DNA of 17,102 nt from Chloroflexota bacterium. Lineage in GTDB: Bacteria > Chloroflexota > Anaerolineae > B4-G1. A program made the position numbers and the translations under genes. Numbering within the stretch: the stretch's first letter is position 1; each line of letters opens with the position of its first letter. This document shows positions 3,757 through 14,717 of this stretch, one piece after another. The stretch lies in NCBI GenBank assembly GCA_024232355.1, contig JAAEPW010000059.1:1-17102 (forward strand). The letters are read 5' to 3'. The notes under the pieces were generated by a model that did not search any database, was not told the DNA's origin, and worked only from the letters and a program-made list of their open reading frames with translations.

Positions 3757-4536
3757 TTATTGCAAACCTGTAGCCGCGCCTCGTCCGAGGTAGGCTTCGA
3801 TCACGCGTGGATTGCGTTGAATTTCCTCAGGAGTGCCGTTAGCGATTTTTGTTCCAAAGTCAATCACCGTTATCCACTCTGAGATACTCATCACCACCCG
3901 CATATCGTGTTCGATGAGCAACACAGTGATATCCAGTTCGTCGCGCAACCGGCGGATGAGTCGGATCATATCCACCGTTTCAACTGGGTTCATACCCGCG
4001 GTCGGTTCATCGAGCAGCAGCAAGGCAGGCTCGCTGGACAGCGCACGAGCGATCTCTAGCCGTCGCTGGTCGCCGTAGGGCAGATTCTTGGCAAACAAGT
4101 CACCTTTTCCTTCGAGTCCCACATAATCCAACAGGCCCAGGGCTTTGTCCAATGCATCTTGCTCCTCGCGCTTGCTGCTGGGGAATCGGAAAATTGCTCC
4201 CAGTACTCCCGAATGCAGACGGCTGTGTTTGCCCACCAGGATATTCTCAATGGCCGTCATCTCGTTGAACAGACGGATATTCTGATACGTGCGGGCGATA
4301 CCCAGCGTGGTGATTTGATCTGGACGCAAATCTGTGAGTGAAACGTTATTAAAGGTCAAAGAGCCTTCATCGGGGCGGTAAAAGCCTGTGATACAGTTGA
4401 AGAACGTGGTCTTGCCAGCGCCATTGGGACCGATGATGCTGACAATGCCGCCTTTGGGAACCGTGAAATCAAATTCGTTGACGGCGGTCAGTCCACCAAA
4501 TCGCTTGGTTACCTGGGTTGATTCTAGAATATTCAT
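3757..4536 (-). CDS. livG: LIV-type ABC transporter ATP-binding protein LivG (operon 1)
   Basis: One of the two cytoplasmic ATPases that drive a branched-chain (hydrophobic/amphipathic) amino acid importer. Length 259 residues, normal for LivG. Walker A GPNGAGKT is at 36-43, the Q-loop TYQN at 83-86, and a LivG-type signature LPYGDQRRLEIARAL from 152 that replaces the canonical LSGGQ. Walker B LLLLDE is at 172-177, the switch histidine H210 lies in IEHDM, and the C-terminal NP.VIEAYLG motif typical of LivG closes the protein. It begins 3 bases after the LivM stop (TAG ACG ATG), implying translational coupling. It is the last gene of this operon: no LivF follows, whereas the neighbouring operon has one. 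The C-terminal third is nearly identical in DNA to the other livG, with mostly synonymous differences. Confidence 0.95.
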   Translation of the reverse strand: MNILESTQVTKRFGGLTAVNEFDFTVPKGGIVSIIGPNGAGKTTFFNCITGFYRPDEGSLTFNNVSLTDLRPDQITTLGIARTYQNIRLFNEMTAIENILVGKHSRLHSGVLGAIFRFPSSKREEQDALDKALGLLDYVGLEGKGDLFAKNLPYGDQRRLEIARALSSEPALLLLDEPTAGMNPVETVDMIRLIRRLRDELDITVLLIEHDMRVVMSISEWITVIDFGTKIANGTPEEIQRNPRVIEAYLGRGAATGLQ

Positions 4537-4539
4537 CGT

Positions 4540-6078
4540 CTATCCCTCGATTCCCTGCAATTGTTCACCATCACTTTTGTTGGCCTGGCCTCGATCCATT
4601 CTCTTGCGTGTAGACGGCCAGAGGCCTTCTGGGCGCACGATCATCATGATGACGAGCAGAGCGCCAAAAACCAACATGCGATAGTCGTCCAACTCGCGCA
4701 GGATCTCTGGCAAGCCCTTTAACACCAGTGCACCCATCACCACACCCGGAATGCTGCCCATACCGCCAATGATGACCAGACAGATCACATTGATAGAGAC
4801 GAGCAGCGTAAAATCCTCGGGGCCGGTGAATTTATTGCGCGAGGCGGAGATCACTCCACTGAACCCTGCAAAGGCAGCGCCGACGGCAAAGGCCAACAAC
4901 TTGTACTTGAGGGTATAGATACCCATTGCCTCTGCCACGTCCTCATCCTCGCGCATCGCTATCCAAGCCCGGCCCACACGCGAATGCTGCAAGCGAGATG
5001 TAGCAAAGGCTACCAGGATGATGCCCAGGATGATAAAGTACATAAAGTACAGGTTGTTGTTTAGGTCAATGCCAAATAGGCTTGGCCCACTGATACCACG
5101 GATGCCGCGAGGTCCGCCAGTGAAATCGGCGAGTACGTCGCTTTTTGATAGGATGCGAATGATCTCGCCAAACCCCAGGGTGACGATAGCCAGGTAGTCG
5201 CCCCGCATACGGAGCACCGGGAGTCCCAACAACACGCCTGCAATAGCGGCTAACATAATACCGATGGGTATCGTTGGCCAAAAGTTCATCAGTATGTTGT
5301 GCGGCTCTGGTGCCGTCAGCATGGCCACGGTGTACGACCCGATGGCAAAGAAAGCCACATAGCCCAGGTCCAAAAGACCGGCCATACCGACCACAATGTT
5401 CAACCCCAACCCCAGGATTACATAGAGGCCCACTGTGCCCAGCGTATAGTTCCAATACCGACCCAATACGAGAGGCGAAATGAATAATAGCAACAAGCCG
5501 ATGCCGTACAGAACGTACCGCGAACGCTCGTACTGCACAGCCTTTTGTACCATCGAGTGACCCAGGAATTTGGTACGTATCCCGCCCCACCAATTCCCCA
5601 AAGATTCTCGCCATCCATAGCGTGCCGAGGCAAAGGGCAACGCAACCCCTCCCAACTCGGCCACTGTCAGAGCGACGAACATCACCACAGCAGCTACCAG
5701 TGGGGAGCGCCCAAGGGTGAGTAGATGAACAGCCTCGGCAGGAAGCTGCGCCAGCCATCGAAACATCTCTACGCCAGCATCATTCAAAGAACCTAACAGC
5801 CAGGTGAACACTGCCATCATCAGGCCATGTGCTCCACCTGCCAGCAGACCAATAACGATGACGTCTCTCCATGACTTGCTTTCGGTACGTCTGGCGATCA
5901 CTATCCCACCCAATAGAGCCACACCCAGGAGCGTCACCCACGCTCCCGGCTCTGGGGAAGATAGATCGAGCCGTTCGATCATAATTCCACCCACCAGGCC
6001 GGTCAGACCGAGCAGCACGACAAAGATATTGATAATGCCTGTGAGTATTCCTTCTCGAAGGATTGAACGGACGTTCAT
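4540..6078 (-). CDS. livM: LIV-type ABC transporter permease LivM with N-terminal membrane extension (operon 1)
   Basis: Membrane-spanning half of an amino acid importer, partner of LivH. The LivM core starts near residue 188 and includes GLYVILGLGLNIVVGMAGLL, DLGYVAFFAIGSY, MRGDYLAIVTLGFGEIIRIL and the ATPase-coupling loop GRAWIAMREDEDVAEAMGI, ending with VRPEGLWPS. In front is an extra part of about 185 residues with about four hydrophobic segments (about 12-35, 47-62, 73-95, 126-148) that ordinary LivM proteins of 300-350 residues lack; the neighbouring LivM has a related extension. The start is supported by AGGAG with 6-nt spacing to the ATG at 6078. The gene lies 44 bases after livH and directly before livG. 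The extension's role is unknown. Confidence 0.93.
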   Translation of the reverse strand: MNVRSILREGILTGIINIFVVLLGLTGLVGGIMIERLDLSSPEPGAWVTLLGVALLGGIVIARRTESKSWRDVIVIGLLAGGAHGLMMAVFTWLLGSLNDAGVEMFRWLAQLPAEAVHLLTLGRSPLVAAVVMFVALTVAELGGVALPFASARYGWRESLGNWWGGIRTKFLGHSMVQKAVQYERSRYVLYGIGLLLLFISPLVLGRYWNYTLGTVGLYVILGLGLNIVVGMAGLLDLGYVAFFAIGSYTVAMLTAPEPHNILMNFWPTIPIGIMLAAIAGVLLGLPVLRMRGDYLAIVTLGFGEIIRILSKSDVLADFTGGPRGIRGISGPSLFGIDLNNNLYFMYFIILGIILVAFATSRLQHSRVGRAWIAMREDEDVAEAMGIYTLKYKLLAFAVGAAFAGFSGVISASRNKFTGPEDFTLLVSINVICLVIIGGMGSIPGVVMGALVLKGLPEILRELDDYRMLVFGALLVIMMIVRPEGLWPSTRKRMDRGQANKSDGEQLQGIEG

Positions 6079-6122
6079 AAATCTCTCCTATACACAACAA
6101 TGATAAAAGACGTGCGCATCCA

Positions 6123-7202
6123 TCACATCTTTTTCTCGGACAGTATCTCTCCCAACAAGCCCGTGGGGCGAAAGATAAGGGCTAGCACCAAAATAGCAAA
6201 AGCCAGTACATCTTTGAGTTGAAAGGGCATTCCCAGCGCGGCCGGGGCGACAGCTTCCAAAATCCCCAGAACCAGACCTCCCACCATCGCGCCCGCAATG
6301 TTGCCGACACCGCCCAACACGGCAGCCGTAAAAGCCTTGATGCCAGGGATAAAACCCACGTAAAAGTAAATATTGCCCATATGCAGGCCCCACATCACGC
6401 CTGCCGCACCGGCGAGCACGCCGCTGATGGCAAAGGTGCTAGAGATGACGCGATCTACGTCTATGCCCATCAAGGCGGCGATTTCTTTGTCCTCGGCCAC
6501 GGCCCGCATCGCCCTGCCCAACCGAGTGCGTTGCACCAGCATGCGCAGTCCGACCATCAGAAGAAGCGAAAAACAAAAGGTGAAAACGCCCGTATAGGGA
6601 ATCAATACACCCTCCCCTCCTACCATCAAAGTCCAACCGATGCCGCGCTCGATCATCTCGGGGTTGGCATAAGCAAAACGGCGAGAGCCAAACAGGATTT
6701 GGGCCGCATTCCACAGAAAATAAGAGGCCCCAATGGCACTGATCAGCGGTACCAGACGAGGCGCCGTGCGCAGCGGACGGTACGCGATGCGTTCTGTCGC
6801 GACGGCAACAACGACCGACACAATTACCCCGGCGACGAATGCGGCAAGGATTGAAATGGTGGCCCAGCCAAAGCTCTGGTTCAGTAACCCTGCACTGTTG
6901 AATGCCTCCAGTGTAAAATAACCAGCAAAGGCACCCAGCATCATGAAATCACCGTGCGCAAAGTTGATCATGAATAAAATGCCATAGATCAACGTATAGC
7001 CCAGGGCAATCACGGCGTAAACGCCGCCCAGGATAAGGCCAGAGATAGCAAAGCGTACCCACGTTTCTGGGCCATAGATTCGTTGGACAAAAAGGACGAT
7101 CCACAACCGCCACGCCAAAAAGGCGAGGAAAAGCACGCCTATTGCCGGACGGATCCATCGTCCAAGGTTGAAAGAGCGCTTGGGACTAGCAATTTGATCC
7201 AT
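6123..7202 (-). CDS. livH: LIV-type ABC transporter permease LivH (operon 1)
   Basis: Inner-membrane permease of an amino acid importer, paired with LivM. The hallmark block GLILGGVYAVIALGYTLIYG followed by MINFAHGDFMMLGAF (NFAHG at 80-84) is typical of LivH, as is the coupling-loop sequence RAMRAVAEDKEIAALMGID. About eight membrane segments are present, and the C-terminus LIFRPTGLLGE is family-like. I chose the ATG at 7202 (359 residues) because AGAGG lies 7 nt before it. A GTG at 7229 would add nine residues but has no good ribosome-binding site; the two starts share the local sequence TGGATCAA. An extra hydrophobic N-terminal segment (about 18-40) precedes the core. The gene is separated from the upstream binding-protein gene by a stable hairpin. 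Confidence 0.93.
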   Translation of the reverse strand: MDQIASPKRSFNLGRWIRPAIGVLFLAFLAWRLWIVLFVQRIYGPETWVRFAISGLILGGVYAVIALGYTLIYGILFMINFAHGDFMMLGAFAGYFTLEAFNSAGLLNQSFGWATISILAAFVAGVIVSVVVAVATERIAYRPLRTAPRLVPLISAIGASYFLWNAAQILFGSRRFAYANPEMIERGIGWTLMVGGEGVLIPYTGVFTFCFSLLLMVGLRMLVQRTRLGRAMRAVAEDKEIAALMGIDVDRVISSTFAISGVLAGAAGVMWGLHMGNIYFYVGFIPGIKAFTAAVLGGVGNIAGAMVGGLVLGILEAVAPAALGMPFQLKDVLAFAILVLALIFRPTGLLGEILSEKKM

Positions 7203-7271
7203 AATAAAACCTCTTAAAAATTGATCCACACATACTTTTTAGATTTTCCGCAAACTACTATCATAAAGAAA

Positions 7272-7307
7272 AGCGATGAGGCAAGCCTTGTGGCCTACCT
7301 CATCGCT
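7272..7307 (-). terminator. hairpin between binding-protein gene and livH (partial terminator or mRNA stabiliser)
   Basis: A perfect 10-bp inverted repeat, AGCGATGAGG at 7272-7281 and CCTCATCGCT at 7298-7307, encloses a 16-nt loop. On the minus strand it is followed by TTTCTTTATG. It sits 31 bases after the binding-protein stop codon and before livH. The position suggests partial termination or protection of the upstream mRNA, giving more binding protein than permease. Operon 2 has a hairpin at the same place. Confidence 0.75.
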
Positions 7308-7338
7308 CATTCATGTGTTCATACGCTAGATCTAAACA

Positions 7339-8535
7339 CTACTGTCCCGGGCCTGTGACCCACTCGCCGTTTTCTGCGATCACAAACACGATAGATGCTG
7401 CTGCGCATTCACCCACGTCGCTGCAGGTAATTGTGCCCGTCAGACCCTGATGCCCTTCGGTGCCACGTACCGCATCGGCCAGAGCCTTGCGCGGGACGAT
7501 CAGGTTGTCGCCATGCTCTATGGTGACCTGCTCCAAGCCCTGAATGATGAGAGACGTCGCATCGTAGGAGTGGGGGGTAAATGTACTCAGGATGCCCTGT
7601 TCCTCATTGTAAGCATCGAAATAGTCCTGACGGAACGTGTCAAAGGCACCCGACTCGGGGATCGGCACAAAGGTTGCAAAGGTGCCCTCAGCGGCCTCGC
7701 CAGCTAACTCAAGGTAGGTCAGGCCGTGGGTGCCGTCGCAACCAAAGAACTTGGCGCCTTCCAAACCGGCCTGGGGCATCTGCGTGACCAGCACGGATGC
7801 ATCAGCGTCGTAGCCGCCGTAATAGATCAACTCGGGTCCATTGGCAGCGACAGCCGCCAACGGAGCGCTATAGTCGGTCTCACCGGGTGTAATGGCCTCC
7901 TCGGCCACCACCTCACCGCCCAGGTCTTTAAAATATTGGCCCGTCATCTCGGCCAAACCCTGCCCGTAGGTGCCGCCGTCGTGCATAACGGCGATCTTTT
8001 TGATGCCGAGGGTGTTAAAGATGTACTCGGCAGCGTACTTGCCCTGCATCCTGTCGGTAAAGGCCACACGGTTAAAGACGGCCGAGCCCATTTCTGTCAG
8101 CGTGGGATTGGTCGCCGATGCCGATGCCATCACGATGCCAACTTCATCATAGATCGGGATCGCTACCTCGGTCGAGCCGGAGAAAGAGTGACCGCTAACG
8201 GCCACAACCTGCGAATCGGCAGCCAGCTTGTTCGCTACAGCCGCGCCCTGTTCCGGTGAACCCTGTGTGTCCTCGATGAGGAATTCGATCTCGAAACCTT
8301 TTATTGTGGAATGGTCGTTGACCGCCAATTCGGCGCCACGGGACATGTCAATACCAAAGTTGGCATAGTCACCCGTATATGGGCCGACATAGGCAATCTT
8401 GATTTTTTGCCCTGGCTCAAAGACAGCACATCCCAATTCATCGGTGCACTCATATGGCTGTGCCCCAAGGCCACAAGCAGAAAGTATAACCATAGCTACC
8501 AATACAACGGAAATCAGCAACGATCGCGTACGCAT
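7339..8535 (-). CDS. livK: LIV-type amino acid ABC transporter substrate-binding lipoprotein (operon 1)
   Basis: Extracytoplasmic receptor that captures the amino acid and delivers it to LivHM. 398 residues. The signal peptide ends in a lipobox LSAC with Cys21 as the predicted lipid anchor, fitting an organism that tethers binding proteins to the membrane. The type I periplasmic-binding fold is recognisable from IKIAYVGPYTGDYANFGIDM, the GAELAVND segment, IEDTQGSPEQGAAVANKL and VVAVSGHSFSGSTEVAIPIY. Two CxxxxxC pairs, Cys30/36 near the N-terminus and Cys371/377 near the C-terminus, are also present in the operon 2 paralogue. A strong ribosome-binding site (AGGAGGAGG, 7-nt spacing) precedes the ATG. 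It is the first gene of its operon behind an unusually long leader. Specificity within amino acids cannot be read from the sequence. Confidence 0.94.
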   Translation of the reverse strand: MRTRSLLISVVLVAMVILSACGLGAQPYECTDELGCAVFEPGQKIKIAYVGPYTGDYANFGIDMSRGAELAVNDHSTIKGFEIEFLIEDTQGSPEQGAAVANKLAADSQVVAVSGHSFSGSTEVAIPIYDEVGIVMASASATNPTLTEMGSAVFNRVAFTDRMQGKYAAEYIFNTLGIKKIAVMHDGGTYGQGLAEMTGQYFKDLGGEVVAEEAITPGETDYSAPLAAVAANGPELIYYGGYDADASVLVTQMPQAGLEGAKFFGCDGTHGLTYLELAGEAAEGTFATFVPIPESGAFDTFRQDYFDAYNEEQGILSTFTPHSYDATSLIIQGLEQVTIEHGDNLIVPRKALADAVRGTEGHQGLTGTITCSDVGECAAASIVFVIAENGEWVTGPGQ

Positions 8536-8616
8536 TTCTTTTCCTCCTCCTTTATGATTGGTTCTGAAAAAACTTGATCAAATTGTTACATTCTCATCCA
8601 GTGATTTTCTTATCGG

Positions 8617-8627
8617 CACCTCCTTTC
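8617..8627 (-). promoter_or_regulatory. isolated strong SD-like motif in operon 1 leader
   Basis: On the minus strand the leader carries GAAAGGAGGTG, a full complement of the 16S rRNA 3' end, about 81 nt before the livK start and separate from livK's own ribosome-binding site. The same 11 bases occur in the operon 2 leader. An 11-codon frame (ATG at 8629, stop at 8594) overlaps it but has no ribosome-binding site of its own. It could be a standby ribosome site or part of a leader switch. Confidence 0.4.
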
Positions 8628-8634
8628 ATAAACA

Positions 8635-8716
8635 GAGCTTTCTCGAAAAAGTGCTCAAAACTCTATTCCCTTGAGAGGTGGAGTTGGGAACGGTTGAAGG
8701 CTTTTCGAGAAAGCTC
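8635..8716 (-). repeat. 15-bp perfect inverted repeat in operon 1 leader
   Basis: GAGCTTTCTCGAAAA (8635-8649) is repeated inverted as TTTTCGAGAAAGCTC (8702-8716) across a 52-nt interior. The interior offers mutually exclusive smaller stems: CTCAA/TTGAG (8654-8658 with 8671-8675), AACTC/GAGTT (8659-8663 with 8681-8685) and TTCCC/GGGAA (8666-8670 with 8686-8690). In the livK mRNA it would be a stable long-range hairpin just upstream of the SD-like motif. No flanking direct repeat was seen, so it need not be a mobile element. Confidence 0.65.
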
Positions 8717-8763
8717 AGATATTCCATAAGAATTTCCTCAATATCACTTGGATCTATGTAATG

Positions 8764-8912
8764 GGCACTGGTTCAGTTGAATGGGATTACGATGTAGCCG
8801 CGCTTTCCATAGCGCGTAAGGCCCTGCGAGGTATGGAAACCTCGGCTACAATCCCCTTTTTGAGCCACAATTGGCTGACTATCCAGAAATCCCACCCAAC
8901 TGAACCAGTACC
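8764..8912. mobile_element. 149-bp MITE-like element with IS6-type ends and 8-bp target duplication
   Basis: The ends at 8764-8788 and 8888-8912 form 25-bp terminal inverted repeats matching at 22 positions, starting GGCACTGGTTCAGTTG on the left and GGTACTGGTTCAGTTG on the right. A perfect 8-bp direct repeat, ATGTAATG, abuts both ends (8756-8763 and 8913-8920), as expected for a target-site duplication. IS6-family elements make 8-bp duplications and have ends beginning GGCACTG or GGTTCTG, so a non-autonomous derivative of an IS6-like element is the best guess. There is no transposase; the interior is a set of nested hairpins. It lies between the promoter and first gene of LIV operon 1. Confidence 0.82.
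8794..8849. repeat. paired hairpins with complementary loops inside the MITE
   Basis: A basal stem GTAGCC/GGCTAC (8794-8799 with 8844-8849) encloses two 6-bp hairpins whose outer bases compete with it. The first is CGCGCT/AGCGCG around TTCCAT (8799-8816) and the second is CGAGGT/ACCTCG around ATGGAA (8827-8844). The loops are exact reverse complements. The two halves are inverted copies of each other in which the stem bases differ in a compensated way. A third hairpin, AGCCA/TGGCT, follows at 8863-8876. Confidence 0.7.
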
Positions 8913-8917
8913 ATGTA

Positions 8918-8946
8918 ATGATATACTCGAATATTCTATTTGTCAA
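8918..8946 (-). promoter_or_regulatory. sigma-70-type promoter of LIV operon 1
   Basis: On the minus strand, a perfect -35 box TTGACA (8946-8941) and a -10 box TATCAT (8923-8918, one mismatch to TATAAT) are separated by exactly 17 bp. Transcription would start near 8911, inside the first bases of the MITE. The -10 box straddles the junction between native DNA and the 8-bp duplication, so the promoter predates the insertion. Confidence 0.75.
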
Positions 8947-8999
8947 AAAAGGTTGTCACTCTTGTTTCAATTGACGCCTGTGCGACACTCGTCAAAGAA

Positions 9000-9032
9000 C
9001 CAGAGCCGCAGAAATTTCTACTGCGGCTCTGG
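9000..9032 (-). terminator. hairpin terminator after LIV operon 2
   Basis: A perfect 12-bp stem, CCAGAGCCGCAG (9000-9011) with CTGCGGCTCTGG (9021-9032), closes a 9-nt loop. On the minus strand it lies about 48 bases after the livF stop and is followed by TTCTTTG, a weak U-rich tail. It separates operon 2 from the operon 1 promoter. Confidence 0.75.
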
Positions 9033-9080
9033 CGGGATATACAAGTCTAGCGTAAGAGGTGCTTCAGAATAGGGAAATAG

Positions 9081-9794
9081 TTATTCCATCCCCAAGTAGG
9101 CTTTCTGCACCGTCGGGTCTTTGCGAAGTCCCTCGGCAGAGTCGCTCAAGACGATCTCGCCTGTCTGGAGAACATAGCCTCGACTGGCGATCTGGAGAGC
9201 CATATGAGCGTTCTGTTCGACGAGCAGAATGGTCGTTCCTTCACGGTTGATCTCTATGATCTTGTCAAAGACATCCTCCACCAAGACAGGCGCTAGCCCC
9301 ATCGAAGGTTCGTCCATCAACAGCAGTCGTGGCCGTGCCATCAAGGCACGGGCAGTGGCCAGCATTTGTTGCTCGCCGCCACTCAAGGTTCCAGATACCT
9401 GCGTTCGGCGCTCTTTGAGTCGAGGAAAGAGCGTAAAAACGCGCTCCAGGTCATCAGCGATACCATCTCGGTCATCGCGGGAGTACGCCCCCATATCGAG
9501 GTTTTCGGCGACGGTGAGTTTTGAAAAGACACCTCGCCCCTCTGGCACCATAGCCACGCCCTTGTAGACGATTTCGTGGGCTTTGTACTTGGCCGTATCT
9601 TGACCTTCGAGCGTGATCTGACCCTGACGAGGCTTGATCAGGCCGCAGATTGCGCGCAAGGTTGTCGTCTTGCCAGCACCGTTGGCCCCGATTAGTGTCA
9701 CGATTTCACCTTCTTCGACGGTGAGTGAGACCCCCTTCAAGGCATGGATGTTACCATAGTAGGTGTGTATGTTATCAACATTTAGCATTGCCAT
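9081..9794 (-). CDS. livF: LIV-type ABC transporter ATP-binding protein LivF (operon 2)
   Basis: The second ATPase of the amino acid importer, normally a heterodimer partner of LivG. 237 residues, the usual size. Walker A GANGAGKT is at 36-43, VPEGRGVF around 83-90 takes the Q-loop position, the signature LSGGEQQMLATARAL starts at 137, and Walker B LLLMDEP ends at 163. LivF proteins typically have VEQN where other ATPases have the switch histidine, and that is seen here at 192-195. The C-terminus KAYLG is family-like. The start at 9794 is supported by GGAG 10 nt upstream; another ATG two codons on is less well placed. It starts 18 bases after livG and is the last gene of operon 2. It is the only LivF in the window and so may serve both transporters. 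Confidence 0.95.
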   Translation of the reverse strand: MAMLNVDNIHTYYGNIHALKGVSLTVEEGEIVTLIGANGAGKTTTLRAICGLIKPRQGQITLEGQDTAKYKAHEIVYKGVAMVPEGRGVFSKLTVAENLDMGAYSRDDRDGIADDLERVFTLFPRLKERRTQVSGTLSGGEQQMLATARALMARPRLLLMDEPSMGLAPVLVEDVFDKIIEINREGTTILLVEQNAHMALQIASRGYVLQTGEIVLSDSAEGLRKDPTVQKAYLGME

Positions 9795-9812
9795 AATTAG
9801 GTTACTCCTTGC

Positions 9813-10595
9813 TTACTGCATTTCCGCAGCAGCGCCCCGTCCAAGATAGGCTTCGATCACTTGTGGGTTGCGTTGAATATCTTCGGGAGTGCCTTCAGCG
9901 ATCTTTGTTCCAAAGTCAATCACCGTTATCCACTCGGAGATGCTCATCACCACCCGCATGTCGTGCTCGATCAGTAGAACGGTAAGTCCGAGCTCGTCCC
10001 GCAGACTACGGATGAAATCTATCATCACGTTGGACTCTTGTGGGTTCATACCGGCTGTTGGTTCGTCGAGGAGAAGCAGCGCTGGTTTGCCTGCCAGCGC
10101 ACGCGCAATTTCCAAACGCCGCTGCATGCCGTAGGGTAGGTTTTTTGCCAAGAGATCTCCCTTGCCCCCCAGGCCAACAAACTGGAGCAGTTTGAGAGCC
10201 TCCTCTAGTGCGTTTTTTTCCTCTTGTCGTGTGGCTGGCGCGCCAATGACGGCTCCGAACCACCCGCGCTTTAGTTGCGGTTCCATGCCGACCAGGATGT
10301 TCTCAATGGCCGACATGTTGGAAAAGAGGCGAATGTTCTGGTAGGTGCGCGTGATACCCATATGGGCGACCTGGTCTGGTGATTTTCCGTTCAGCAAGTG
10401 GCCATTGAACATGATCGTACCTTCTTCATGACTGTAAAATCCAGTGACACAGTTGAAAAAGGTGGTTTTTCCTGCACCATTCGGCCCGATGATACTGACG
10501 ATGGAATGCTCAGGGACCTCAAAGTCAAACGTGTTGACCGCCGTCAGGCCGCCAAAGCGTTTGGTGACTTTTTCAGAAGTAAGAATTGTACTCAT
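9813..10595 (-). CDS. livG: LIV-type ABC transporter ATP-binding protein LivG (operon 2)
   Basis: Cytoplasmic ATPase of the second amino acid importer. 260 residues: Walker A GPNGAGKT at 37-44, Q-loop glutamine at 86 in TYQN, LivG-type signature LPYGMQRRLEIARAL from 153, Walker B LLLLDE ending at 178, switch His211, and C-terminal NPQVIEAYLGRG. It is a clear paralogue of the operon 1 LivG, with the strongest match in the last 60 residues. The genes flanking it are livM (32 bases upstream) and livF (18 bases downstream). AGAGG lies 9 nt before the ATG. Confidence 0.95.
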   Translation of the reverse strand: MSTILTSEKVTKRFGGLTAVNTFDFEVPEHSIVSIIGPNGAGKTTFFNCVTGFYSHEEGTIMFNGHLLNGKSPDQVAHMGITRTYQNIRLFSNMSAIENILVGMEPQLKRGWFGAVIGAPATRQEEKNALEEALKLLQFVGLGGKGDLLAKNLPYGMQRRLEIARALAGKPALLLLDEPTAGMNPQESNVMIDFIRSLRDELGLTVLLIEHDMRVVMSISEWITVIDFGTKIAEGTPEDIQRNPQVIEAYLGRGAAAEMQ

Positions 10596-10627
10596 AAACT
10601 TTATCCTCTCAAGATTAACCGGCCTGA

Positions 10628-12316
10628 TCAGGCGTCGTCTACTGCCAGAGAAGGCTCGTCGGCGTCGGTACGCAACTCGCGCTTTCTGACTTCAGATGGC
10701 CAAAGGCCTTCCGGTCGAACGAGCATCATGACGATCAACAACGCACCATAGATCAGCAGGCGGTATTGAGCAAACTCACGCAGCAGTTCTGGCAGTCCAA
10801 CCAGGGCCATAGCACCCACGACGACACCGGGCAGGCTTGCCAGGCCACCCACCAGGATCAAGCTCAATACGTTGATTGAGACCAGCATCGCGAAACTGTT
10901 GGGAAAGATCGAGCCGATCCGGCTGGCAAAGATTGCCCCTGACAGCCCAGCAAAAGCGGCGCCGATGCCAAAAGCGAGCAGTTTGGTTTTGACCAGGGGA
11001 ATGCCCACAGCCTCCGCCACGTCCTCGTCCTCGCGCATAGCCATCCATTGCCGGCCAAGTCGCGCTTCCCGCAGACGCCACGACACAAAGATGGCCAGAA
11101 AACAGCCAAGTACAATCAGATAGTAGAAATGTCCCGGTTCGACAAGAATGAACCCTCCGATCTGTGGCTTGGGAATCCGGATAATGCCCTGCGCGCCGCC
11201 GATGGCGGGTTTTAAAAAGTCTGATTGGGCCAAGATGCGGATGATCTCGCCAAAGCCCATAGTGACAATTGCCAAATAGTCACCCCGCATACCCAGCACC
11301 GGTATGCCGAGCAGTACCCCGGCCGTCACCGAAGTAAGGACACATATAGGCACTGCCATCCAGAATGACATATTGCCAATTCCCAGGGGGCTATCGGACG
11401 TCAGCACGCCCATCATGTAAGCGCCGATGGCAAAAAAGGCCACATAGCCCAGGTCCAGCAGACCGGCATATCCGACGACAATGTTCAACCCCAGACCCAA
11501 GAGGATGTAGAGCCCGACCTGGTCCACCACCTCGGCCAGATAGGAATCGAGGAGCAGTGGCAGTCCCAAAATGAGCAAGATGCCGAGCACGATGCTCACG
11601 TTACGCCTCTGCCGCTGTTTCTCTGGCGTGATGTTGTTGGTTAGTCGTTTCCGGACACGTTGCCCCTGTGCGCTCCACCAGACGGTGAACCCCACGATGG
11701 CAAGGAACAACACTATCGCCGGCACCAATAGAAGGCTCTTGGAGCTAAAAAACAGCTTTTCAAACCCTCCACCTACCACTTTTCGAAGCACACGAATCAC
11801 GATCTCGGAGAACAATCCTACGCTCAACGTCCCGACCAAACCGTTCATCACCGGGCGCTGGATGCGGTCTGGCGTAAAGTGTATCACCGCTCCGACCAGC
11901 CCGAGGATGCCGGTCAGCACCATCAGAATCAGACTACCGACCACCGATCCACGGCCAAAGGTCAACATGCCGATCAACACCGGCGAGATGTTGACCAGAC
12001 CTAGCTCACGCAAATCAGTCATACCGGATAGGAACACTAGTGCAATGAGCGGTAGTGCAGAGAACAGGCCCGCGATGAGGGCACTCACCAATCCCACACT
12101 TTTTTGGGATTGAGAACTTTTTTGGGCGAGGAAATAGCCCGCCATAACCGGAGCCACAAAGAGCATCAAGTGCCCCAAAGTGATCACACCTTCGATCAAA
12201 TCCCTTGCTGTCGAGGCTTCGACAAGCCCGATGACGCCCAGGCACAAAGCGATGACGCCAGCCAAGAGGCCAAGGCGAACAATAGAACGCCAGTCAAAAC
12301 GAATAGATTCAGCCAT
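10628..12316 (-). CDS. livM: LIV-type ABC transporter permease LivM with long N-terminal membrane extension (operon 2)
   Basis: Inner-membrane permease, partner of the LivH encoded just upstream. The 562-residue chain has its LivM core from about residue 240: VGLYILLGLGLNIVVGYAGL, DLGYVAFFAIGAY, MRGDYLAIVTMGFGEIIRIL, coupling loop GRQWMAMREDEDVAEAVGI, and end VRPEGLWPSE. The first 240 residues add about six hydrophobic segments (around 14-33, 46-64, 76-97, 109-120, 124-146 and 194-214) and a basic stretch near 216-238 that standard LivM proteins do not have. It is longer than the extension of the operon 1 paralogue, and the two share a GR-containing hydrophobic block (LTLGRSPLV versus LTFGRGSVV). 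It starts 12 bases after livH with an AGGGG ribosome-binding site. Confidence 0.93.
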   Translation of the reverse strand: MAESIRFDWRSIVRLGLLAGVIALCLGVIGLVEASTARDLIEGVITLGHLMLFVAPVMAGYFLAQKSSQSQKSVGLVSALIAGLFSALPLIALVFLSGMTDLRELGLVNISPVLIGMLTFGRGSVVGSLILMVLTGILGLVGAVIHFTPDRIQRPVMNGLVGTLSVGLFSEIVIRVLRKVVGGGFEKLFFSSKSLLLVPAIVLFLAIVGFTVWWSAQGQRVRKRLTNNITPEKQRQRRNVSIVLGILLILGLPLLLDSYLAEVVDQVGLYILLGLGLNIVVGYAGLLDLGYVAFFAIGAYMMGVLTSDSPLGIGNMSFWMAVPICVLTSVTAGVLLGIPVLGMRGDYLAIVTMGFGEIIRILAQSDFLKPAIGGAQGIIRIPKPQIGGFILVEPGHFYYLIVLGCFLAIFVSWRLREARLGRQWMAMREDEDVAEAVGIPLVKTKLLAFGIGAAFAGLSGAIFASRIGSIFPNSFAMLVSINVLSLILVGGLASLPGVVVGAMALVGLPELLREFAQYRLLIYGALLIVMMLVRPEGLWPSEVRKRELRTDADEPSLAVDDA

Positions 12317-12328
12317 AATTCCCCTACC

Positions 12329-13396
12329 TCACGCTTTCTTCTCGGCGAGTGCCTCGCCCAGGATGCCTTGGGGCCGGAAGATGAGCACCAGCACCAGCAT
12401 ACTGAAAGCGACCACGTCACGGAGTTGATAGTTGGCCGGGATGTGTAATCCGTGCAAGACCAACCGGGGGCCAATAGATTCAAAGATGCCCAGGAGGAGA
12501 CCACCAATGGCTGCTCCTGGCACGCTGCCGATGCCACCCATCACTGCGGCCGTAAAGGCCTTGATGCCGGGGATAACGCCCATAGTAAAGATGGTCTGAC
12601 GAAAGAGTAATGCGAAAAGCACGCCAGCCGCACCGGCCATGCCCGCGCCGACTGCAAAGGTGACAGTGATTACCTGATCCACGTCTATGCCCATCAACGC
12701 AGCTACGTCCTTGTCCTCAGAGACCGCTCGCATTGCCTTGCCCATCTTGGTGCGCATGACAAAAATGTAGAGACCGATCAGCATCAAGACAGAGGCCACG
12801 ATGACGATTGCCTGTCTCTTGAGGATATCGAACCCAAACATGGACCACTTCCCCATCAAGGGTTCGATCTCTGGGAAAGCAACCACTTGCCCGCCATACA
12901 AACCAAAAAAGAAGTACTGCCAGAAAAACGAGGCGCCAATGGCTGTGATCAAAGGGATCAGTCGAGGGGCTTTTCTCAACGGTCGGTAGGCGACCCGTTC
13001 GGTGAGTAGAGCGATACCGACAGATACCGTCATTGCCACCAGAGCAATGATCAGCAATCCCACCACTGGATTCTGATCAAGGAACCCCGAGGCGCTCAAC
13101 GGCGCTGCTACAAACACGGTAGCCGTCATAGTACCTGACATGAAAAACTCGCCGTGGGCAAAGTTGATCATTAGTAGTACACCGTACACTAACGTGTACC
13201 CCAAGGCGATGAGCGCGTACAGACTTCCCTGAGACACACCGACGATGAGATAATCTACAAGGTCGTGGAAACTGAATGGCGTTTCTTTGTCCAAAAGGCT
13301 AACCGTTGTGCCCCAGATGACTACGATGATAATGCCTATCCTGATAACCCACAGGACGAGTTTCAAATAGTCCATATCTTTTAAACGTTGTAACAT
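12329..13396 (-). CDS. livH: LIV-type ABC transporter permease LivH (operon 2)
   Basis: Inner-membrane permease forming the translocation path with LivM. 355 residues. The LivH hallmark GSLYALIALGYTLVYGVLL followed by MINFAHGEFFMSG has NFAHG at 78-82. The coupling loop KAMRAVSEDKDVAALMGIDV and the C-terminal LIFRPQGILGE follow. An additional N-terminal hydrophobic segment (about 12-32) precedes the conserved core. The ATG at 13396 has GGAG 7 nt upstream; the ATG at codon 8 lacks one. It follows the binding-protein gene after a 115-base gap that holds a long hairpin. Confidence 0.95.
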   Translation of the reverse strand: MLQRLKDMDYLKLVLWVIRIGIIIVVIWGTTVSLLDKETPFSFHDLVDYLIVGVSQGSLYALIALGYTLVYGVLLMINFAHGEFFMSGTMTATVFVAAPLSASGFLDQNPVVGLLIIALVAMTVSVGIALLTERVAYRPLRKAPRLIPLITAIGASFFWQYFFFGLYGGQVVAFPEIEPLMGKWSMFGFDILKRQAIVIVASVLMLIGLYIFVMRTKMGKAMRAVSEDKDVAALMGIDVDQVITVTFAVGAGMAGAAGVLFALLFRQTIFTMGVIPGIKAFTAAVMGGIGSVPGAAIGGLLLGIFESIGPRLVLHGLHIPANYQLRDVVAFSMLVLVLIFRPQGILGEALAEKKA

Positions 13397-13420
13397 TGGT
13401 ATTCTCCAGTAATGATTCCT

Positions 13421-13458
13421 GAGGATGGGCCGGGGACCAAGTCCCTAGGCCCATCCTC
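13421..13458 (-). ncRNA. long intergenic hairpin between binding-protein gene and livH (operon 2)
   Basis: A perfect 11-bp stem, GAGGATGGGCC (13421-13431) with GGCCCATCCTC (13448-13458), is extended by an inner 5-bp stem GGGAC/GTCCC (13433-13437 with 13441-13445) and a CAA loop. On the minus strand it is followed by AGGAATCATT with no U-run, so it looks like an mRNA-stabilising or processing structure rather than a terminator. A second small hairpin, GCGGC/GCCGC (13491-13505), lies just beyond the livK stop. Confidence 0.7.
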
Positions 13459-13511
13459 GTTACTTGCCTAACAATGTGTCAGACTAGATGGCGGCGTTTT
13501 GCCGCACTTGA

Positions 13512-14717
13512 CTAGTCGCTCCAGATGGGCACAAACTCGCCGTTTGTAACCTGGGAGACCGCGATGTTGGGATCGGCGCAGTCACCGTATTCATTGCAGG
13601 TCAGGTTGCCTGTGATGCCCTGATAGTCCTTGGTGGCATACAGGGAGTCGCGCAACGCCTGACGGCCGATGTGAATGGTGCCGTCTTCATCCTGAACGGC
13701 GACCTCTACGATAGAGTTCAAAATCATGTAGGTCGCGTCGAGGGCGTGGGCGTGGAAGGGCGCGGTGGGTGGTGTCCCATAGTTGTTCTCATAGGTTGTC
13801 AGGAACGTCTGGTAAAGCTCTCCTGCAAATCCCAGATCGGGGCCAGAGACGTACATACCCTCAGCCGCGTCACCAGCAGCCTCGATGAACGCTGGCGATT
13901 GGATGCCGTCGGCGCCGGACAGGATGGCGTTCTCCAGGCCAGCAACTTCGGGAGCCTGGGTGGTGATGGCTGCACCCTCAGCGATAAAGATGGGGTAGTA
14001 GAGGAACTCGGGCGGACCAGCTTCAGACACTGCCATCAGAGCCGGGTGCATATCGGTATCACCCTTACCAATGGCCTCAAAGGCGACGAGGTCGCCACCC
14101 ATTTCCGCAAAGGAATCGGCGAATACGCGGGCCAAGCCCTCGGTGTAGGGGTCGCCGTCGTGGATCGCGGCGGCCGATGTCACACCTAGTTCTTCGAGGG
14201 CGTATACGGCCATGGCGCGGCCCTGCACCTTGTCGTTGTGCGCGGTACGCAGATAGCCGGGGTTCCAGGCCTGGTCTGGATCAGTGAGTGAGGGGGCTGT
14301 GTTGGATGGGGAAATCATGACGTAGCCTGCGTCAGAGACGATCTTGGAAGCCGGAACACCTGCGCCGGAGCAGCTGGTGCCGATCGCAGCGACGATGCTG
14401 GGGTCGGAGACGATCTTTTGTGCCGAGGTCTGTCCACCCTCTGCGTTGCACATGTCATCCTCGAACTGGAGTTCAACTGTGTGACCCAGTACTTCACCAT
14501 AGAGCTCGACAGCAACCTCGACACCGTGCTGAGAGTCCAGTCCCAACTCGGTGTTGGGGCCACTGATTACCAGCGATGTGGCGATACGGATCGGTTCATC
14601 TGGTGCATAGGTCACGCAACCGAGGGCGTCGGTGCACTCGAACGGCGCTGCTTGAGGACCACAAGCTGTGGCCACGATGCTGAGCAACAATAAACTAACA
14701 AACGCTAGCCTCTTCAT
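13512..14717 (-). CDS. livK: LIV-type amino acid ABC transporter substrate-binding lipoprotein (operon 2)
   Basis: Extracytoplasmic amino acid receptor of the complete transporter. 401 residues. The signal peptide is followed by Cys19 in a variant lipobox ATAC, the predicted lipid anchor. Type I binding-protein features include IRIATSLVISGPNTELGLDS, VEVAVELYG, SAQKIVSDPSIVAAIGTSCS and YVMISPSNTAPSLT. Paired cysteines Cys28/34 and Cys374/380 match those of the operon 1 paralogue; Cys90 and Cys116 are additional. The rest of the sequence has diverged clearly from the paralogue, so the two receptors may prefer different amino acids. A ribosome-binding site AGGAGGAG precedes the ATG. The gene follows a strong promoter with a leader of about 180 nt. 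Confidence 0.94.
   Translation of the reverse strand: MKRLAFVSLLLLSIVATACGPQAAPFECTDALGCVTYAPDEPIRIATSLVISGPNTELGLDSQHGVEVAVELYGEVLGHTVELQFEDDMCNAEGGQTSAQKIVSDPSIVAAIGTSCSGAGVPASKIVSDAGYVMISPSNTAPSLTDPDQAWNPGYLRTAHNDKVQGRAMAVYALEELGVTSAAAIHDGDPYTEGLARVFADSFAEMGGDLVAFEAIGKGDTDMHPALMAVSEAGPPEFLYYPIFIAEGAAITTQAPEVAGLENAILSGADGIQSPAFIEAAGDAAEGMYVSGPDLGFAGELYQTFLTTYENNYGTPPTAPFHAHALDATYMILNSIVEVAVQDEDGTIHIGRQALRDSLYATKDYQGITGNLTCNEYGDCADPNIAVSQVTNGEFVPIWSD

Follow-up and report, generated by a model that had tools for sequence, protein, structure and literature searches.

REPs, REPINs and RAYTs are covered by several reports (PMC3733652, PMC3116915, PMC2817692, PMC6006769), and the parts drawn on here describe, for the GTAG superfamily, a GTAG head, an imperfect hairpin, inverted doublets and REPs that flank RAYT genes (PMC3733652, PMC3116915). 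Insertion sequences and REPs can share one site, as with the REP-targeting elements ISRm22 and IS1397, where, in the part of PMC1525189 used here, the insertion sequence lies inside the REP. Short elements of IS families are likewise known: IS1 and MITEs in Sulfolobus are covered by PMC3718332, and for the IS6 family the available part of PMC7986276 gives inverted repeats of 15–20 bp as well as MITEs of 227 and 336 bp. Among the titles and abstract openings found in a literature search, which does not establish absence, none describes a REPIN inside an IS1-type MITE. The locus analysed here very probably holds such an element: the best explanation of the whole is a MITE of the IS1 type that carries a REPIN and was inserted at the predicted transcription start of the livK2 promoter. 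While its parts are individually of known kinds, the combination of an IS1-type MITE and a nested REPIN is new.

The window, i.e. the whole analysed stretch of 17,102 nucleotides from a Chloroflexota bacterium, carries two tandem liv-type ABC transporter cassettes (positions 3757–14717), DNA stretches of which are 71–81% alike at a distance of about 6.1 kb. The MITE sits between the livF-type ATPase gene that ends the first cassette (9081..9794, minus strand; named from its translation, without a library scan) and the livK-type gene of the second cassette, which encodes a periplasmic binding protein (7339..8535, minus strand; Peripla_BP_6) and lies downstream of the promoter and the MITE. This livK and one ATPase of the second cassette were assigned by Pfam, the other liv names are taken from translations.

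The element spans 149 bp (8764..8912, no strand assigned) and is defined by its arms, its target duplication and the family search. Its IS1-type ends (GGYACTGGTTCAGTTG) form terminal inverted repeats of 25 bp, a left arm at 8764..8788 (plus strand) and a right arm at 8888..8912 (minus strand), which were confirmed at the coordinates given in the preliminary description; 22 of 25 positions are complementary (88%) and the arms are 99 nt apart. Immediately abutting the element on either side is the octamer ATGTAATG (left copy 8756..8763, right copy 8913..8920, no strand assigned), which matches at 8/8 positions, so that the earlier reading as a 149-bp non-autonomous element with an intact 8-bp duplication stands. 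The element has the properties of a MITE, being short, bounded by terminal inverted repeats and lacking a transposase gene; it is overlapped by one listed open reading frame of 90 aa or more, which gave no Pfam match at E 0.001, and a tRNA search of the window returned none. Folding is pronounced both for the 149-nt strand as DNA (z −8.1) and for the minus strand as RNA (−76.9 kcal/mol, z −9.0), with none of 200 shuffles as good in either case. The window element is a genuine mobile-type element.

In the intergenic region, a sigma-70-type promoter directed toward livK is predicted at 8918..8946 on the minus strand (TTGACA-17-TATCAT, 11/12). The proximity of this promoter to the right end of the element had gone unnoticed in the preliminary description. 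Its −10 hexamer overlaps the right target duplication and stops at 8918, with 5 nt separating it from the element. When the intergenic region 8536–9080 was shuffled, 11 of 1000 versions contained a promoter scoring 11/12. The window itself has just two such sites, one upstream of either livK gene; with a less strict threshold, the intergenic region has 2 sites versus 1.0 expected. Among 13 copies of the MITE, an 11/12 promoter close to the end is confined to the window copy; L045 follows with a 10/12 site 21 nt away. Since no other of the 13 copies shows such a promoter, promoter proximity is not a general target preference. Because the element begins 5 nt past the predicted −10, the predicted livK2 mRNA would start with the whole MITE, which would thus be its 5′-terminal hairpin. 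In bacteria a 5′-terminal hairpin can stabilise an mRNA, as in ompA, and by analogy the MITE hairpin may affect the livK2 mRNA.

The remainder of the predicted leader can be compared with that of the first cassette. The window contains just two occurrences of AAAGGAGGTG (minus strand, 8626 and 14867), one per livK leader and well upstream of the start codons; the sequence may indicate a short reading frame in the leader. It follows the −10 by 38 nt in livK1 and, the element being subtracted, by 134 nt in livK2, where a second hairpin of 82 nt (8635..8716, no strand assigned) also intervenes. This hairpin, likewise overlooked before, is imperfect (GAGCTTTCTCGAAAA...TTTTCGAGAAAGCTC); no counterpart to it was seen in the livK1 leader, and matches to it in four of seven related genomes (E 0.09–0.58) were all insignificant. 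It is possibly another insertion or an attenuator.

The ends recur well beyond the window, as the preliminary description had led one to look for. In public contigs representing one genome per species, the pattern GGNACTGGTTCAGTTGNNTGGG was found in 73 stretches from Desulfobacterales, Chloroflexota, beta-proteobacteria, Magnetococcales and other lineages. With a MITE-size pair defined as both ends at no more than 4 mismatches and a length of 100–500 bp, the window, the 73 loci and a further locus (L235) together comprise 31 pairs. Five of them have an 8/8 duplication (window, L027, L051, L052, L055) and three a 7/8 duplication (L024, L042, L064), versus 1 of 5975 reaching at least 7/8 in a control in which the right flank was slid along. 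The other 23 pairs, including all six of MAG S20.Bin143, have neither; in two of these (L016 and L028) a 7-base match is present, shifted by one position. Since the ends recur elsewhere as short paired elements, 8 of 31 with a duplication, the window MITE is more than a chance arrangement, having both a target duplication and additional copies in other genomes. Judged by eye for 16 elements, the interiors differ between most host lineages; a common interior is found in the elements of Desulfobacterales GMC2 and Desulfonema magnum. The version in the Chloroflexi MAG G576 (L018, L041, L042, L049, L051) measures 170–177 bp and contains CTTCGTC/GACGAAG heptamers repeated in inverted order, another palindromic cargo. 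Viral contigs had a shorter pattern in 55 stretches, and no MITE-size pair was found there.

Judged by glycyl-tRNA synthetase, the host of the window is probably a relative of the Thermoflexia MAG G79 (G002), since this protein is 78% identical between the two, as opposed to 53–64% for the best match in nine other matching genomes (11 genomes searched). Within the family of G79, the element is matched in 3 of 11 genomes, in G501 and G504 only in the REPIN part. G79 itself has no close livK (34%); the best match within its family is 63%, and the best LivK match among 199 genomes searched 66% (G370), in whose family the element was found in 0 of 10 genomes by a search that had no positive control. 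To find an empty site, the livK loci of nine relatives were searched with the intergenic region, which gave no match better than E 0.18. Since livK aligned in all nine (48–65%) while livF was matched in none of the stretches compared, these loci provide no usable orthologous junction.

The kind of transposase that acts on such ends can be approached through longer copies. A full-length element of the sort anticipated in the preliminary description, a complete 1163-bp IS with similar ends (GGCACTGGTTCAGTTT), is present on plasmid pTs417 of Candidatus Thiodictyon syntrophicum (NZ_CP020371.1; ends at 1084 and 2246 of L187). It is flanked on both sides by the duplication ACCGCAGC (8/8) and encodes WP_100917404.1, annotated as an IS1 family transposase. 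The plasmid search with the transposase matched 12 records, four of them annotated as IS1 family transposase; ends were examined for the best match, NZ_CP020371.1. In a beta-proteobacterial MAG (L059), a 1285-bp stretch has both ends but lacks a target duplication (2/8); the transposase in it is broken and matches IS1 weakly. This transposase fragment was matched in 6 of 19 genomes carrying the end motif; the four Chloroflexota among the 19 (G002, G003, G013, G014) gave no match. A protein search with a longer relative returned 2325 proteins at E ≤ 0.001; among the best 120 of these, many have 334–342 aa, and for two a source gives the name IS1 family.

Three transposases of the 320–338 aa class, the kind found next to these ends, match NCBIfam NF033558 (transpos_IS1) with E values of 7e-10, 5.9e-13 and 2.8e-16, all below its cut-off of 100 bits. 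No IS6 model appeared among their NCBIfam hits up to E 0.1, in a library which we take to contain one. For one of the three, weak IS481, IS3 and IS630 hits around the helix-turn-helix were also obtained, and one transposase has a weak match to the InsA zinc ribbon (E 0.0014, below cut-off); none of the three reaches a Pfam cut-off, and when PDB sequences were searched with one transposase, nothing beyond weak matches to zinc fingers (E 0.5 or higher) was obtained. Alignment of seven relatives reveals the invariant acidic residues D118, E119, D183 and E262 (P0001 numbering), which probably include a DDE triad. Of 400 Chloroflexota genomes, 8 have a match to the transposase alignment at E 1e-10, which is weak in seven. 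The strongest match (G030, 2129–2704, E 1.3e-80) is a gene in two pieces, and adjacent to it, on the same contig and strand, lies an end (GGCACTGGTTCCGTTGAATGGGATT, 2770–2794) that differs from the left end of the window element by one mismatch (24/25, 96%). A transposase of this type was found neither in G79 itself nor, at E 1e-20 and in a search run without positive control, in any of the 48 genomes of its order; the mobiliser is therefore unseen in the G79 lineage. The system resembles the IS1 family, particularly the diverged single-ORF members represented by NF033558, in its terminal inverted repeats, short duplications and homologous transposase, the latter with scores below the curated cut-off. 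Differences from that family are a partner transposase encoded by a single uninterrupted ORF of about 336 aa, as opposed to the two frames of IS1 itself, the 8-bp length of the duplications and the lack of a transposase gene in the window element.

Two other origins have to be weighed against the IS1-type MITE. The preliminary description had taken the ends to be IS6-like, in which case an IS6 transposase would act on the GGCACTG ends of an IS6/IS26-family MITE and make the 8-bp duplication. Duplication length and the opening GGCACTG, with which the IS26 end also begins, agree with such an origin; these features do not discriminate between IS1 and IS6 and do not imply the latter. The transposases of the kind adjoining the ends, on the other hand, are IS1-like with no IS6 model among their hits, and the complete Thiodictyon copy is annotated as IS1 family. 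According to the part of PMC7986276 drawn on here, IS6 elements share the 8-bp duplication and GG-initial ends and include MITEs, but the transposase beside the present ends is unrelated to theirs and the 25-bp inverted repeats exceed their 15–20 bp. The IS6 origin was accordingly rejected as extremely improbable. It is also hardly conceivable that the region is a native cis-regulatory livK leader, i.e. an attenuator or riboswitch, with no mobile element involved. The location in the predicted leader, the strong folding and the second hairpin that follows would suit this role, but a native leader accounts neither for the perfect 8-bp duplication nor for matching elements in other genomes and contexts. 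In addition, the window has no Rfam family at gathering score, and in the leader of the paralogous livK1 the promoter and AAAGGAGGTG are present without an element of this kind.

Nested in the IS1-type MITE is an inner inverted repeat (8793..8850, no strand assigned), which was not recorded in the preliminary description. It represents a REPIN core, TGTAGCC...GGCTACA, consisting of two inverted REP units with the tetranucleotide GTAG at the hairpin foot. Unit 1 (8794..8816, plus strand) combines GTAGC with the hairpin CGCGCT-TTCCAT-AGCGCG and unit 2 (8827..8849, minus strand) GTAGC with CGAGGT-TTCCAT-ACCTCG. Searching G79 with positions 8785–8870 gave 45 alignments at E ≤ 1, some of which represent a single palindrome read twice; as far as MITE ends were sought, 33 of these alignments lie away from the six places where this MITE or its fragments were seen. 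A set of 54 REP units was compiled from the window and from loci of G79, G501 and G504, at least 4 of 6 stem pairs being required. Stem pair 3 is C-G in 42 units, A-T in 11 and other in 1, and stem pair 5 is C-G in 15, G-C in 21, A-T in 15 and other in 3. In these units the stems are kept through changes on both sides and are covarying.

The same REP class is found beside RAYT genes in relatives of the host. A gene piece next to such REPs in G79 scores 97.4 bits with NF047646 (REP-associated tyrosine transposase; cut-off 80), and 8 of 11 genomes of the G79 family match this model, 4 of 11 above cut-off. Among 12 RAYT loci scanned, two (C33 of G79 and C189 of G504) have the REP class of the window on both sides of the RAYT, and nine show no such motif; its count in control loci was 0 in 448,589 bp. 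Both RAYTs flanked in this way are broken, by a frame change in G79 and by one TGA in G504. Both loci with this flanking arrangement belong to relatives of the host. The third locus, C111 of G504, has a different REP class. Such a different class (GTAGGGCGGGATTCCCATCCCGC) surrounds a RAYT of this genome other than that of C189 (L246, 1381–2202), which suggests two RAYT/REP pairs in one genome.

With its GTAG head, imperfect hairpin and inverted doublet, and with RAYT genes flanked by the same REP class in relatives, the interior is similar to the REP/REPIN and RAYT systems as far as these are described in the cited parts of PMC3733652 and PMC3116915. It differs from them in being cargo inside a MITE that has its own ends and duplication, and in occurring in both orientations. 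With ISRm22 and IS1397 it shares the coincidence of an IS-type element and a REP at one site, but the order is reversed with respect to the part of PMC1525189 used here, since the REPIN lies inside the MITE and is common to related copies. The term cargo is based on an element in G79 (L235) that has the same ends but no REPIN. A second, unrelated MITE family of G79, 121 bp long with CAGCAATTCCCGTT ends, also contains the REPIN (L064 4195–4315, L180–L186) and shows 9/9 duplications in six of eight copies examined. One of these six interrupts the REPIN carried by a first-element copy (L064) and has the duplication GCGAGGTAT.

Relative to the window, the REPIN core is inverted at four of five distinct G79 places scored (C107, C157, C13, C46) and has the same orientation at one (C79, L016); L024 and L142 represent the same place, and the rearranged fragment C102 (L236) lies outside this score. 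Two readings of the interior compete with that of a REPIN which entered the MITE and was later inverted. The palindrome might belong to the MITE proper, for instance as a folding spacer formed inside it, and its recurrence at the same internal position in the window, L024, L144, L159, L016 and L064 is what one would expect of such a part. However, the same core is present at other G79 places, within the second MITE family and beside RAYT genes, and it is absent from L235, which leaves this reading very unlikely. A doubtful but more serious competitor is that the two orientations reflect independent insertions at the same internal site, with no inversion. REPINs do occur at many G79 places, and a preferred target could yield identical junctions. 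Against this, the copies have both the flanking MITE sequence and its junctions in common, and once inverted the core shows 97% identity, compared with 85–86% for the long straight matches. Entry followed by inversion is thus the preferred reading.

Taken together, the following course is the most probable. The MITE would have been mobilised in trans by an IS1-like single-ORF transposase of about 336 aa, presumably of the DDE type, that acts specifically on the GGYACTGGTTCAGTTG ends, each insertion creating an 8-bp duplication. For the REPIN, a single entry into an ancestral MITE is most likely; it would then have been copied along with this MITE, its orientation being flipped later, probably via its own short inverted repeats. 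In the window, the MITE would have come to lie directly beyond the −10 of the livK2 promoter, with −35 and −10 left intact; if this predicted promoter is used, the livK2 transcript should begin with the entire element as a 5′-terminal hairpin. A bolder version, which we consider improbable, is a composite with two engines, in which the IS1-like transposase moves the outer ends, a RAYT independently recognises and flips or exchanges the REPIN, and the mRNA hairpin alters expression of the livK2 operon; in this version, REPIN-in-MITE may be a recurrent arrangement in these Chloroflexota, since the second MITE family of G79 carries a REPIN too.

The element joins in one piece of DNA transposase-driven MITEs and RAYT-associated REPINs, which are usually treated apart, and both REPIN orientations are preserved in related genomes. 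This raises the question of whether REPINs spread by riding on a MITE and whether RAYTs act on them in place. Moreover, an insertion that spares −35 and −10 at a predicted transcription start would show cleanly how a mobile element can become an mRNA leader.
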